From positions 1 to 64,000 of the forward strand of contig CALVOG010000004.1 in assembly GCA_944350265.1 (NCBI GenBank): a stretch of 64,000 nucleotides of DNA, read 5' to 3'. Position 1 is the stretch's first letter. Every line of letters begins with the position of its first letter. The DNA is from an uncultured Clostridia bacterium. Its GTDB lineage: Bacteria > Bacillota > Clostridia > Christensenellales > UBA1242. Shown piece by piece: positions 31,314-50,428 of the stretch. Made by a program: the position numbers and the translations under genes. The notes under the pieces were generated by a model. The model made no database searches. It was not told the DNA's origin and saw only the letters and a list, made by a program, of their open reading frames with translations.

Positions 31314-32492
31314 ATGGACGAGAAAAAGAAGAAGATTTTAAAGGGAGTTGGAATTGGCGTTTTGGCACTTGCCGTTGTTGGCACCGCGATCGGAATTGGA
31401 TTTAGCGTTTCCAACAAAGAGAAAGAACCGGATGAGCCGATTATAAATAAGCCAATAGAGCCGGACACTCCTGTTAAGCCAGAACCAAAGCCTGAGCCAG
31501 AACCAACACCAGAACCAGAGCCGACACCAGAACCAGAGCCTGAGCCGGAGCCAACACCTAAGCCAGAACCGGAGCCTGAACCTACGCCGGAACCTGAACC
31601 AGAGCCGGAACCTGAGCCAGTGCAAGATAGAGAAGATATGATTTTCTTTGACGACACCGGCGAACTCAATGTCAAAGGGTTTCACGAGGCGTTAATGGAG
31701 ATTGTTGAAAATTTTAAAAATAGAGGCGTGATTACAATCCAAGAGCAATTCATTGACCGATTATATAAAGACTATGATATGCTTGCTGTAAATTGGAACC
31801 AAGATGAAAAACAAGTGCAGATATATTTTGACGGCGAATTAATCAGTAAACGACAAAAAAACGAAAGAGAATTTTTGGTTTTAACCTTAGACGAGATTGA
31901 TATTAAAGCCAAAGAACACGAAAATAGTTTGCAAAAATTTATTGACAATTCTTTTGAGAAGAATATAATACCAACTTATGCTGAACACGAAATATTTTAC
32001 ACCTATAGCAAAAATGACGTTAGGCGGATGGATTCCTATCAAAAGGCATATGATATGGCAGTATATCGTATGGAGCAAGAACTTGGTAAAAACGAAACTG
32101 TTATTGCAAGTTTTTTAAAAGAAAAGGATGAGGCCCCAGCAGTAGATAACTTGGGGAATAATATTAAATATCAAACAAGTTTTCTTGTTCTAAATGAAAA
32201 GACGAATGAACTAAAAGAGGTGCCAATCTACATTCAATCTTCCTCAGTGTTAGGTGGAGGTAGTGATAAGAACTTGGAAGATAGTCCGCTGGAAGGTAGT
32301 AAGTATGTTAAGGTATATGCAGATAAGCGCAATGTAAAAAATATTTGTGAAATTGACCCTGAATATCTTTACGAAGTGGATGGAAACAAAGTCAGTCTGT
32401 TAAGTGCCGAAAGCGATGAAGAAATGCTTTACACCGATAATGTTAAGGGCTACACAGCCTATCTACCGAAGGATATCTCCAGAGAGTTATAG
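31314..32492 (+). CDS. Membrane-anchored protein with Pro-Glu-Pro linker
   Basis: 392 residues. A short basic N-terminus, one membrane helix (about 9-30), then a roughly 45-residue PEP/PTP repeat linker (about 50-102) and a C-terminal domain of about 290 residues with mixed alpha/beta character. The linker looks like a wall-spanning stalk with the domain outside the cell. No family recognised. GGAGGGATATTTT is the Shine-Dalgarno region. The repetitive linker DNA could vary in length by slippage. Confidence 0.65.
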
Positions 32493-34646: not shown

Positions 34647-34975
34647 CCTAACTCATAAAATCTAGGCGAGACGATGTTGCTTAACTAAAGGATAGCAAAT
34701 AAGAAACGCAGGGTAGTTATTTGTCATTCTGAGCGGAGCGAAGAATCTCGTCGTAGAACGGCTTTCAAAAACAAGAGTGACACAGCGTGGTTGCAATATA
34801 GCCCTTACCGCAAGGAGATACCATTAAATGTCATTCTGAGCGGAGCGAAGAATCTCGTCGTAGCACTAGCCCGCGGATGTCAAATACATCCACATTTTGC
34901 GTAAGTTTAATTCATACTCTCTTTCGTTAGAAAAATAGGGTTAAACTCAAAACACTTCACCCATCCAACCGCGGT
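34647..34975. repeat. Dispersed intergenic composite repeat, inverted copies
   Basis: Two copies of CATTCTGAGCGGAGCGAAGA (near 34724 and 34831), CTTACCGCAAGGAGATACCA, and at the right end the inverted palindrome CCAACCGCGGTTGG with CATACTCTCTTTCGTTAG, matching the units at 23491 and 59449. No gene. Confidence 0.8.
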
Positions 34976-35009
34976 TGGAAAAATTTTTTGGAAATTTTGC
35001 GAAATCGTT

Positions 35010-35038
35010 TGGTAAATTGAGGGGTTTTAGATATAATA
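35010..35038 (+). promoter_or_regulatory. Adhesin promoter
   Basis: TTGGTA (35010-35015), 17-bp spacer, TATAAT (35033-35038), with AAGGAGGGTGG before the ATG at 35075. Confidence 0.75.
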
Positions 35039-35074
35039 AAAATGTAAGTTTTGAAAAAGCTAAGGAGGGTGGTT

Positions 35075-37656
35075 ATGAAAAGTGGAAGGATGAAGCGTAT
35101 TTTGCTGAGCGTTATCGCTTTCCTTTTCGTGGGTTGTTCCATCGCTGGCGGAACGGTCTTGCTCTCAAATACCTATATCAGCGATAGTAACCGGGGGGGG
35201 ATTCGACCTCTTCCGAAAATGAATTAACCAAAAATGCCCCAACAAACTCTGACCTTTGGACCAACGGACACTACGCGACCGCCTTTGACAACGAGGGCGA
35301 GGCTGGCATAGACGGCACCACCGAAGAAAAAGCCTACGAAATCCGCACGGCGGAACAACTAGCCCTTTTAGCTTACCGCATAAACACCACCTCCACAAAT
35401 TCCACATATAAATCACTCCACTATGTCCAAACCGCGGACATAGATTTATCTGCGCACTACTGGGATGCGATTGGGACATCATCCTATTATTTTCGTGGGC
35501 ATTATGACGGCGGAAACTTCACAATCTCTGGGTTATATACTCGGGCAGGATCAAGTTCAACATATAGTTTGCAAGGGCTTTTTGGATATGTAGAAGGTCA
35601 GTCAAAGATAGATAAAGCTATAATAAAAAATGTTGGAATAATTGACTCTAATATACAAGGATATGAATATGTCGGTGGAGTTGTGGGGCGTGCTAATTCT
35701 TATTCCACAATCACCAACTGCTATAACATCGGCGATGTAACTGGGGTACGGAGTGTCGGTGGAGTTGTGGGGTTTGCTGATTATTCCACAATCACAAACT
35801 GCTATAGCGCTGGCTCTGTAACTGGAGGGGGATATGTTGGCGGAGTGGTGGGATATGTTAATAATTCCACAATCACCAACTGCTATAACACCGGCACTGT
35901 AACTGGTAGGTATGATTATGTTGGCGGAGTTGTGGGGTATGCTTATTCTTCCGACATCACCAACTGCTATAACACTGGCACTGTAACTGGGAGTGGTTAT
36001 TATGTTGGCGGAGTTGTGGGGAATGCTGATTCTTCCACAGTCACCAACTGTTATAACGCCGGTGCTGTTGATGGAGATTCTTCTATAGGCGGAGTTGTGG
36101 GGTATGCTGATTCTTATTCCGACATCATCAACTGCTATTATGGTGGAAACTGCACGCTTTCGAATGGAATTGGGAGTTCTTCCTCTAACACTGGGGCGTC
36201 AAAGGATGAAAATTTAATAGCTAATGCCAAAAGTTTAAGTTGGTATCAAGATAGTTATAACTGGAATAGCAATAGTCCTTGGGATTTTGAAAATGTTTGG
36301 ACTTTTGTTGAGGGAATGAATGATGGGTATCCTGTTTTAAGAGGGTTTTCTACTAAAATTACATACAATTCGAACACACAACCTGAGGAGGTTGTGAGCG
36401 AATCTTTTTCCGTGGGGACAACCATTGTTTTGGCGGAGGCGGACTTGTTCGTGAGAGAGGGATATAGCGTTTCAAGCTGGAACACGGTGGCGGACGGGAG
36501 TGGTGTTAGTTATGCGCCGGGCGCAACCTACACTGGCTCAAGCGTCACTCTTTACGCTCAGTGGGAGGCGAAAATTATCCAAGTTAACCTCGACGAAAAC
36601 GGAGGGGCGGGCGGAACAAGCACGATATATTTGAAGTATGATAGCGGGTGGTATTCGAGTAGTTCCTGCACGAGTTCGAGTAAAATAACCTCACTGCCGT
36701 CCACGCCAACACGGACGGGGTATGAGTTTAAAGGATATAGCACCGGGCCTGACGGGAGCGGAACGCTGGCGGTGAGCGAGACGGGCGCAATTAACGTGAG
36801 TGACACCTTTTATTCGACGGACGGTTCGCGGACGTGGTATGCTGTGTGGGAGGCGAGGAATCCGGCGTATTATGACAGCGAGGGCGGATTTTGGTATGTT
36901 GAGAATGGCAAGTTGCCACAAAGCAAGGTGAGCGATAATTTGAAGAGCACGCTTTCGGGGCGGTGGTCGAGTTTGACTGATGGCTCAATCTACTATATGG
37001 GCGTTGAGGAGTTGGTGGCTGATGACTTGACGACCGACGGCGGGATGCAGTCGAAGGTGTATAACGGCGAGGAGTATGTGAAATTCAACGGCGAGTTTTA
37101 CCTTGTGGAGCCTATCAGGTGGAGGCTTGTGTATTCGTCCAGCCAGCAAGAGGGCTATGCGGTTGAGAATACCAGCGTTTTGGCAACAATGGCTGAGATT
37201 GTTTTTGTAGGTAGTTACTCTAGCGCGAAGATAGGCGTGGGCGAGGGATATTCCGCCGAGAGTGTGACAATGCTATTAAAAAATCAAGTTAGCACTGAGT
37301 TTTTGGTAAGTGAAATCCGAGAGGTGGAAATCTTCGGCACGCCTAAGGACACCACCACCGCAAGCGGGAGCGTGTTTGTGGCGTCTAGTGAAGAACTAGC
37401 AAACTTCAAAACGAACAAAAATAACACCACGGGCAGTGGAGTTAAACCGGGCAAGGTCTCGCTTAGCGACTTTGTGAAAGACTACCTCCGCGCAACGGGT
37501 CAGGGCAACTACTACTTCACCCGCGACCTTGGCGACCAGCTTAACACCATCCGTTGCCTTAACCCAGTGGGCGACCGCTCCCAAGCCAAAGCCCAACAAA
37601 CCCTCGGCGTGCAGTTTACAATTAAGGTGACGGAATACGCTTGCAAAGAGATGTGA
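35075..37656 (+). CDS. GLUG/InlB-repeat surface adhesin, frame-interrupted at a G8 tract (putatively phase-variable)
   Basis: From ATG 35075 the frame gives a signal sequence (RILLSVIAFLFVGCSIAGG) and stops at 35225-35227. One extra G in the eight-G tract at 35193-35200 would join it to the long frame ending at 37656, giving about 860 residues. That frame has DIDLSAHYWDAIG and GHYDGGNFTISGL, then six GLUG repeats (GGVVGYADSSTITNCYNTG type, 35670-36150), two InlB B-like repeats (TLYAQWEAK, TWYAVWEAR) and a C-terminal domain around EPIRWRLVYSS. No LPXTG is seen. With G8 only a 50-residue peptide is made. A pseudogene or a sequencing error are the alternatives. Confidence 0.8.
35193..35200 (+). 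other. G8 homopolymer tract (candidate slip switch)
   Basis: Eight consecutive G follow AACC, about 40 codons into the adhesin. G8 is out of frame with the repeat domain; G9 (or G6) restores it. It is the only G run of this length I noticed in this AT-rich window. Confidence 0.75.
35670..36150 (+). repeat. In-gene GLUG repeats
   Basis: Six imperfect units of about 75-80 bp, each with GGAGTTGTGGGG and ATCACCAACTGCTATAAC pieces. The DNA is similar enough for recombination to change copy number. Confidence 0.8.
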
Positions 37657-38044: not shown

Positions 38045-38340
38045 GCATATTTCGCAAGGCAAGGCAGTTATTTGTCATTCTGAGCGTCAGCGAAGAATCT
38101 CGTCGTAGAACGGCTTTCAAAAATTTGAAAACTACCACTTTGAATAGACTGAATGCATAGGTTTGATTTAAAAGAAAGACATATATAGGATAAGAGTTCA
38201 ATATATAAAATGCTTAGCGTTTACTTTGCGCTAAGCGTTTTTTTATGAGGATAAGTTAGACATACGCGGGTGGGAGCTACGACGAGGTTCTTCGCTCCGC
38301 TCAGAATTACAAACAAACTAACTAACAGTCCTAGCAAGCG
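38045..38340. repeat. Dispersed intergenic composite repeat, two facing copies
   Basis: An inverted copy (GTCATTCTGAGCGTCAGCGA, GTCGTAGAACGGCTTTCAAA) and a direct copy (TTAGACATACGCGGGTGGGA, GTTCTTCGCTCCGCTCAGAA) flank the hairpin at 38212. Spurious ORFs with the peptide FVILSGAKN come from this family. Confidence 0.8.
38212..38244 (+). terminator. Terminator-like hairpin, same as after recR
   Basis: GCTTAGCG (38212-38219), TTTACTTTG loop, CGCTAAGC (38229-38236), then T7. Stem and loop are identical to 10797-10821. Confidence 0.75.
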
Positions 38341-38469: not shown

Positions 38470-38499
38470 TTGCGCTTTTCCAAAATGTTGTGCTATAAT
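38470..38499 (+). promoter_or_regulatory. Promoter of Spo0A-C gene 1
   Basis: TTGCGC (38470-38475), 18-bp spacer, TATAAT (38494-38499). Confidence 0.6.
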
Positions 38500-38521
38500 G
38501 AAAATAGTTCAGGAGGGGATT

Positions 38522-38911
38522 ATGGAAGACCAGGAACTGAAAACAAAAATTAGGCGCATACTTGTTAAACTCGATTTTCGCATCGACTTAAGTGGCTTTG
38601 ATTACCTTGTCAGCGCTGTTGCCCTCGCCATAAGAGATGAGCGTTATACGAAAAATTTGTGCGAAAAACTTTATCCAAAAGTTGCGGAACTCCACGGAAC
38701 GAGCGCATCGTGTGTTGAAAGGAGCATAAGGAACGCCATTTCAAAAGCTTCAATCAGTAGTGGTTTGAAGAAAATCAACAAAGCCTATGGCGCAATGCTC
38801 ATAACGCCTTATGAGCGCCCAAGCGTTGGCAGGCTGATAAAGGTTTTGGTGGAGGTGTATAACGCCAATCTTATCGGGGATGTGTTGCAAAAACAGGAAT
38901 TAGACGCCTGA
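38522..38911 (+). CDS. Receiver-less Spo0A C-terminal domain protein 1
   Basis: 129 residues that align over nearly their whole length with the DNA-binding domain of Spo0A: GFDYLVSAVALAIRDE, LYPKVAELHGTSASCVER, SIRNAISKA, and a closing helix RPSVGRLIKVLVEVY. The recognition helix keeps the VER-IR pattern of Spo0A (SRVERAIRHAI). There is no phosphoacceptor receiver domain and the ORF starts right at the DNA-binding domain, with AGGAGGGG before ATG 38522. The paired 0A boxes upstream suggest control by Spo0A or by itself. It could act as a constitutive activator or as a competitor of Spo0A; this is inference. Confidence 0.85.
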   Translation: MEDQELKTKIRRILVKLDFRIDLSGFDYLVSAVALAIRDERYTKNLCEKLYPKVAELHGTSASCVERSIRNAISKASISSGLKKINKAYGAMLITPYERPSVGRLIKVLVEVYNANLIGDVLQKQELDA

Positions 38912-50028: not shown

Positions 50029-50428
50029 GGGGGCGATTTAGTTTCGACAGGGTTTTGTTTGAAAAATGTAAAGCACGTGGCGGTTGTCCATCACGCCTAA
50101 AAAGGGACGCGCGAATTAAACGCAGACAAAAATGAAAACGTTGTTTCTATGAACACAATGCCTTGCGCAGCGTAAGTAAGAAGAAATAACAGCCCGATTG
50201 GAGCAGTATCCAATCCGCCAAGTTTTGATTTGCCGACAAAACTCTCGGTGTCAGAAGGCAAAAATTTTGCATAAAGTTCTTCCTTCTATATGCAAAAAAA
50301 TTTAAAGGGATAGTTATGGCGACTTGTTTATGGGTGACGCCGTAATGAAATCTAAGCATAAACTAAACGTGTAGAAAAGTTTTTCGAAGAAATTTTGGAC
50401 TCGGGAGCATAACCCGACGCCTCCACCA
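50029..50428 (+). ncRNA. ssrA: tmRNA (one-piece ssrA)
   Basis: 400 nt. The 5' end GGGGGCG pairs with CGCCTCC before the 3' ACCA (50425-50428). GTTTCGACAGGG follows the 5' stem and CTCGGGAGCATAACCCGA is the T arm (GTTC replaced by GCAT in the loop). The tag frame runs from GCA 50122 to TAA 50175 and encodes ADKNENVVSMNTMPCAA. It directly follows smpB, so both may be on one transcript and be processed apart. Confidence 0.93.
50122..50175 (+). other. tmRNA proteolysis tag frame
   Basis: 17-residue tag ending PCAA rather than the usual ALAA or VAA. It starts with Ala as expected for the resume codon. Confidence 0.8.

Follow-up and report, generated by a model that had tools for sequence, protein, structure and literature searches.

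In Neisseria, switching of the porA and opc type depends on a homopolymer between the -35 and -10 elements that sets their spacing, and the opa genes carry a repeat of the pentamer CTCTT in the leader region. Several Opa paralogs are each phase-variable, and an excerpt of the cited source counts 11 opa genes in one strain (PMC11868660). Excerpts of three further papers describe homopolymers within genes. In Campylobacter jejuni, coding runs of at least seven Gs set the reading frame at many loci per genome; the switching frequency of a pure poly-G tract was roughly 2 to 3 x 10^-2, and in a broken tract, which locks the state, switching was undetectable (PMC8437040). In Bifidobacterium breve, slippage of an intragenic G tract governs a surface structure of a commensal, the sortase pilus (PMC9187656). 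In Listeria, inlA has A6 and A7 alleles of a homopolymer near its start and a broken allele, A2GA4, which is in frame and stable (PMC2831843). The locus described here lies in a window of 64,000 nucleotides (the whole stretch of DNA that was analysed, positions 1 to 64,000 of contig CALVOG010000004.1, assembly GCA_944350265.1) from an uncultured Clostridia bacterium. In it a run of eight Gs (G8) stands between a hydrophobic leader and the long repeat body of a predicted surface protein. Judged from its sequence, the run is very likely a hypermutable slippage switch that puts leader and body in frame (ON) or out of frame (OFF), and the copy in the window is predicted to be OFF.

The mechanism is already known; new are the group of hosts in which it is seen, a leader cassette shared between genes, and the presence of two putative switch types. 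The C. jejuni loci mainly encode enzymes that modify surface glycans, in a pathogen, whereas here repeat proteins stand behind one shared leader; the artificially broken Campylobacter tracts may be seen as the counterpart of natural alleles, described below, whose tract is interrupted by A. The B. breve strain has two pilus clusters and another protein family, in contrast to five leader copies plus tracts in promoter spacers within one genome here, and inlA is one gene with a poly-A run, unlike the multigene family with poly-G described here. The opa repeat is a pentamer inside the leader region, and the tract here is a homopolymer after the leader. Among the titles listed by the literature searches, which most subscription journals lay outside, none concerns poly-G switching in this group, its multigene, two-mode and lineage-wide use, or switched GLUG proteins.

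The first-pass annotation, made from the letters alone, had described a promoter, a Shine-Dalgarno sequence, a hydrophobic leader and a G8 run about 40 codons in, with about 820 intact codons carrying GLUG and InlB-type repeats beyond it in another frame, and direct reading, the frames and Pfam agree with all of this. On the forward strand, a predicted sigma-70-type promoter at 35009..35037 has TTGGTA at 35009-35014, a 17-base spacer and TATAAT at 35032-35037, and both hexamers have the same letters in all five leader copies of the genome. The Shine-Dalgarno sequence AAGGAGG (35062..35068) precedes the ATG at 35075 of a short open reading frame (ORF), which as assembled runs through 35075..35227, encodes 50 residues beginning with the hydrophobic leader, and stops at TAA 35225-35227, soon after the tract. 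The G8 tract, the proposed slippage site, occupies 35193..35200 and starts at codon 40 of the leader frame, near the 5' end of the ORF as in phase-variable loci built on simple sequence repeats; paralogs and congeners have a tract at the equivalent position. The body frame is open from 35191 and its stop ends at 37656; counted from 35194 (35194..37656) it has 820 codons, intact and out of frame with the leader. Pfam finds GLUG in six stretches of this body (E 1.4e-26, 91.4 bits against a cut-off of 20.5). The GLUG repeats at 35659..36069, above the cut-off in five places, are predicted to form a beta-solenoid from the model of the in-frame paralog. List_Bact_rpt, the InlB B-repeat type, is found in two stretches (E 8.9e-11, 42.2 bits against a cut-off of 27), the best-scoring at 36355..36561, which is residues 388-456 of P0002.

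During replication, slipped-strand mispairing would add Gs to the run or remove them, and through the change of frame a daughter cell would make the secreted repeat protein in full length or else no more than a leader peptide of some 50 residues. As the genome has five leaders, every one with a separate tract, a single clone would contain cells that display different combinations. That the benefit might be attachment, or evasion of immunity or phages, is a guess.

The window's own genome (G000), a 1.12 Mb assembly in 18 contigs, has 11 runs of at least eight Gs (25 overlapping matches merged). Four of them, the window's included, stand behind a leader of the window type, and a fifth leader copy has G7. 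The copies are C1:19346 (G7, out of frame), the window copy on contig C4 (G8, out of frame), C13:24295 (G9, in frame, 1054 amino acids), C12:26969 (G10, out of frame) and C15:22562 (G10, cut by the contig end), so that only the C13 copy is in frame. The leaders of C1, C12, C13 and C15 differ at 0 of 118 positions before the tract, yet their tracts have 7, 10, 9 and 10 Gs; the window leader differs from each of these four at 6 of 118 positions.

The same tract stands in the same place in other species of the genus. A leader profile built from 11 leaders was searched in 112 genomes of the genus and gave 88 hits in 18 of them, the own genome included; 86 hits were read, leaving out G261:C37:3, at a contig end, and G282:C71:86. 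A tract was called pure if it was a run of at least seven Gs, and broken if it was a run of at least eight letters with one or two A's inside. By these rules 46 tracts are pure, 12 are A-broken (ten by one A, two by two) and 28 are neither. Lengths of the pure tracts are G7 in two, G8 in five, G9 in twenty-nine, G10 in nine and G13 in one. Sixteen of the 46 are ON, 23 are OFF, their fetched sequence staying open for 177 codons or more beyond the tract, and 7 are undecided, three at contig ends and four whose frame beyond the tract is open for only 26-66 codons. The same common length, G9, leaves some genes ON and others OFF (14 and 11, with 4 undecided), and ON and OFF lengths coexist among paralogs and among species. 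Every A-broken tract is ON (12 of 12, 0 OFF), meaning that OFF alleles are gone once the purity of the tract is lost, in classes drawn post hoc. The leaders with neither type of tract comprise 21 ON, 2 OFF and 5 undecided. Frame state differs between pure and A-broken tracts with a Fisher p of 2.0e-4 and a within-genome permutation p of 0.022.

The ON/OFF switch by poly-G proposed in the first-pass annotation is thus borne out by an in-frame sister copy, unequal tracts behind identical leaders, recurrence in congeners and the in-frame A-broken tracts. The OFF state that it gave to the window copy holds as assembled, the leader frame stopping at 35227 and the body lying in another frame. It had named one outcome that would speak against a switch, namely that the frame beyond the tract has decayed in every relative; this was not found, as the ON copies and the open frames of the OFF copies show.

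Outside the genus the leader is rare (20 of 297 genomes of a family sample, in 4 of 42 genera), and there was no match in plasmids. Runs of at least nine Gs as such occur in 85 of 101 genus genomes and are absent from 16. A protein search with the in-frame copy gave 7167 matches at E <= 0.001 among 7994 candidates scored, of which 120 were listed. Among these, in-frame leaders are seen in P0005, P0007, P0008, P0014, P0021, P0023, P0026 and others, and gene predictions that start in shifted leader frames, by reading the letters, in P0016, P0022 and P0027 and in P0036 and P0069. A look for alleles of the same locus in other strains, among the 120 listed matches to the window's body, gave nothing above 87% identity apart from the own record P0024. 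When the two copies of G142 were compared with the examined stretches of the own genome, one flanking gene only was shared, that of the C2 copy, near C15:454-1803.

The bodies behind these leaders are older than the leaders. In four bodies, three of them OFF, about 400 C-terminal codons give a synonymous divergence (dS) of 0.34-0.46 and pairwise ratios of nonsynonymous to synonymous divergence (dN/dS) of 0.20-0.26. The window body against its three paralogs gives 0.20 over 399 aligned C-terminal codons, and the three OFF copies compared with each other also give 0.20; an OFF allele of 820 codons therefore has an intact, selected body. Because identical leaders carry unequal tracts and the older bodies show low dN/dS, it seems that the leaders were homogenised recently, that purifying selection has acted on the bodies, and that the difference between copies lies in the number of Gs. 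It is possible but unlikely that the tract serves chiefly as a joint at which recombination exchanges the bodies that follow a common leader, with length change as a by-product. This would fit four identical leaders (0/118) followed directly after the tract by 68-75 bases with 7 to 29 differences (ungapped count) and, further on, by a dS of 0.34-0.36 among C1, C12 and C13; it would also fit P0109, where the leader of the window type precedes a body without any GLUG motif by Pfam. A joint for recombination, however, does not predict that 12 of 12 A-broken tracts are in frame. The two ideas, joint and slippage switch, are compatible.

The window has no excess of G runs: two overlapping G7 matches stand against a mean of 2.61 in 100 dinucleotide shuffles, and 64 of the 100 shuffles have at least two. 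An excess of G runs was accordingly dropped as evidence for a switch, and the evidence is position and recurrence, not count. The G8 is the sole run of at least seven Gs or Cs in the window, the remaining 88 of 89 runs of seven or more being A or T. In four bodies GGG makes up 119 of 505 glycine codons, and the longest G run there is at most five.

An error of assembly or sequencing, by which the true tract would be in frame and the gene simply intact, is very improbable. Homopolymers are prone to error, and this is a draft genome of 18 contigs. Against this, the own-genome copies were assembled at 7, 8, 9, 10 and 10 Gs, the same tract with mixed frames recurs in other species, and 38 A/T runs of 7-8 stand within frames of the window that are unbroken (at least 150 codons from stop to stop, runs at least 30 bases from the frame ends). 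An error at the window copy would alter the state assigned to that copy, not the case for a switch.

A second leader family was also observed in the own genome, at C13:10869 (G11, L034) and C15:5626 (G10, L037), with the tract inside the hydrophobic signal sequence. Long frames of 840 codons (C13) and 1126 codons (C15) follow, both shifted against the leader; in the C13:10869 copy another ATG, in the long frame, stands 34 bases before the tract. The C-terminal parts of these proteins align with the in-frame member of the window family (43% over 378 and 75% over 361 residues). A G11 run at C3:113502-113512 (L042) lies close to the beginning of an open frame of 391 codons in which Pfam matches nothing, and is possibly a further switch. 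Two more runs in this genome, C7:20266 (poly-G) and C7:22119 (poly-C), lie between TTGACA and TAAAAT or TATAAT, and the remaining two runs of at least eight Gs, C1:25851 and C1:111860, have no assigned context.

Runs between promoter hexamers, as in the Neisseria porA and opc type, were found by pattern across the genus. In the congener G242, whose G runs were read along with those of G131, 12 of 18 fetched runs of at least nine Gs stand between TTGACA and TAAAAT or TATAAT. A scan for spacers with at least eight Gs found them in 44 of 112 genus genomes, at 150 places summed and up to 15 per genome; poly-C spacers occur in 46 of 112, and the G form occurs in 62 of 396 genomes and 24 of 142 genera of an order sample. 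The reversed pattern gave 0 in each case, a simple control in which dinucleotides are not preserved. Forty distinct predicted promoters, drawn from the loci fetched after removal of copies sharing their first 80 bases, have spacers of 15 bases (9), 16 (18), 17 (5), 18 (3), 19 (4) and 12 (1). By a loose start rule an ORF follows 31 of the 40, with a hydrophobic segment at its start in 25 of the 31; 11 of the 31 have matches (E <= 1e-5) in the window family or in that of the second leader, in part through repeats common to them. Two proteins of G242, L206 and L138, align with the family of the second leader over 446 and 514 residues (37-40%), so that relatives of one protein family appear to have a coding tract in the window's genome and a promoter tract in the congener G242. 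From related proteins behind a coding tract in one species and a promoter tract in another, we infer convergent selection for switching. In the spacers listed for G242, 11 of 15 have exactly nine Gs (two have eight, one ten and one eleven), which counts against strong variability.

Some of these predicted promoters recur. An identical 30-base core with a G8 spacer occurs in two species, at G000:C7:20266-20295 and G142:C5:45258-45287; in the own genome it precedes a 238-amino-acid protein with a sub-threshold match to the adhesive domain Pectate_lyase_5. G293, G218, G246 and G242 have 10 to 15 G-spacer promoters each, and within G293, G218 and G246 many of them are near-identical, as if one cassette had been copied before many genes.

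In principle a long run of Gs may cause slipping when it is transcribed, and transcriptional slippage or ribosomal frameshifting might yield full-length protein at every tract length with no genetic switch. This, too, seems highly unlikely: frame would then matter little, yet the A-broken tracts, in which far less slippage is expected, are 12 of 12 in frame, and many genus genomes have G runs in promoter spacers, where DNA length matters and not frame. Such slippage may come in addition to the DNA switch. Least probable of all is a frameshifted, dying repeat-protein gene without regulation, which would suit the out-of-frame body, the short frames after the tract in 4 of 46 pure-tract relatives and the 2 of 28 tract-less relatives out of frame, but not 820 intact codons, a dN/dS of 0.20 between three OFF copies, the open codons of the 23 OFF copies or the in-frame A-broken tracts. 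Assembly error, pseudogene decay and slippage on RNA or the ribosome each explain parts of the evidence, yet none accounts both for selected bodies and for A-broken tracts that are in frame.

A number of points nevertheless weigh against a slippage switch. The count of G runs is not above shuffle expectation. Draft assemblies were used throughout, and any single tract length could be a consensus or an error; the marked mode at G9 (29 of 46 pure tracts) could reflect biology or an assembly effect. Variation in length was observed among paralogs and species, not in one locus over time, and dN/dS, being an average over history, may partly predate the OFF state. The rules for pure and broken tracts were fixed after the hit list was seen. 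Testing within genomes gives a much weaker result than pooling them, and the congeners are related, so that the tallies are not independent events. The four pure-tract copies with 26-66 open codons may be decayed, and two of the 28 tract-less leaders are likewise out of frame with the long frame downstream of them. Loss of mismatch repair was rejected as the cause of slippage: the MutS domain PF00488 is present in the window's genome (in a frame of 880 codons) and was found in each of the 21 genomes searched for it, MutL not having been searched.

The model of the in-frame paralog has a predicted local distance difference test score (pLDDT) of 65.8 overall and about 90 in the solenoid part; only the GLUG solenoid and some stretches of the repeats are modelled with confidence. 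A fold search of the PDB with this model found nothing at E <= 0.001, the InlB B-repeat 2y5p standing at E 0.071. The sole solved relative by sequence at E <= 0.01 is 7uvl (chain 7uvl_P), over query residues 178-366, the GLUG region; it is labelled LPXTG-motif cell wall anchor protein in the sequence search and IgA1 protease in the fold search. An IgA1-protease-like identity was rejected, the match to 7uvl being confined to the GLUG region and Pfam finding no peptidase domain beside the GLUG repeats in P0002 (E <= 1) or P0003 (E <= 0.01). A loose lipobox after match residue 15 is present in 30 of 86 related leaders; the window leader has FVGC just before the cut at residue 15 and so is uncounted in this tally. 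The leader and the repeats make surface exposure likely, and "adhesin" would be a label taken from the repeat domains. A further GLUG match was seen at G000:C9:21396, within a 6862-codon open frame of a very large repeat protein.

Around the gene, a repeated intergenic sequence, tcattctgagcg...gcgaagaatctcgtcgtag, stands at 34724-34756, 34831-34863 and 38075-38108 of the window, flanking the gene on both sides. The first ORF of at least 100 codons after the gene, at 38498-38911, encodes a protein of 137 residues in which a Spo0A C-terminal domain is found (E 6.3e-20). A 392-amino-acid protein at 31314-32492 has a match to Trypan_PARP below the cut-off, probably through low complexity. A tmRNA gene lies at 50029-50428, and Rfam at its gathering threshold finds nothing else in the window.

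On balance, we lean towards the wider view that poly-G tracts form a switchboard throughout a whole order of uncultured Clostridia with small genomes. Promoter-leader cassettes would be copied with differing bodies behind them, and members of the same families would be switched through frame, by Gs in the leader, or through spacing, by a G or C run in the promoter spacer. One type would take the place of the other from species to species, and some genes would be frozen ON by a single A. Genomes of about 1 Mb that have several predicted poly-G switches are spread over a probable Clostridia genus. With a conserved tract, two forms of it on related proteins, and A-broken tracts in the copies that stay in frame, the switch could be tested on metagenome reads that already exist, with the A-broken alleles as a built-in control.
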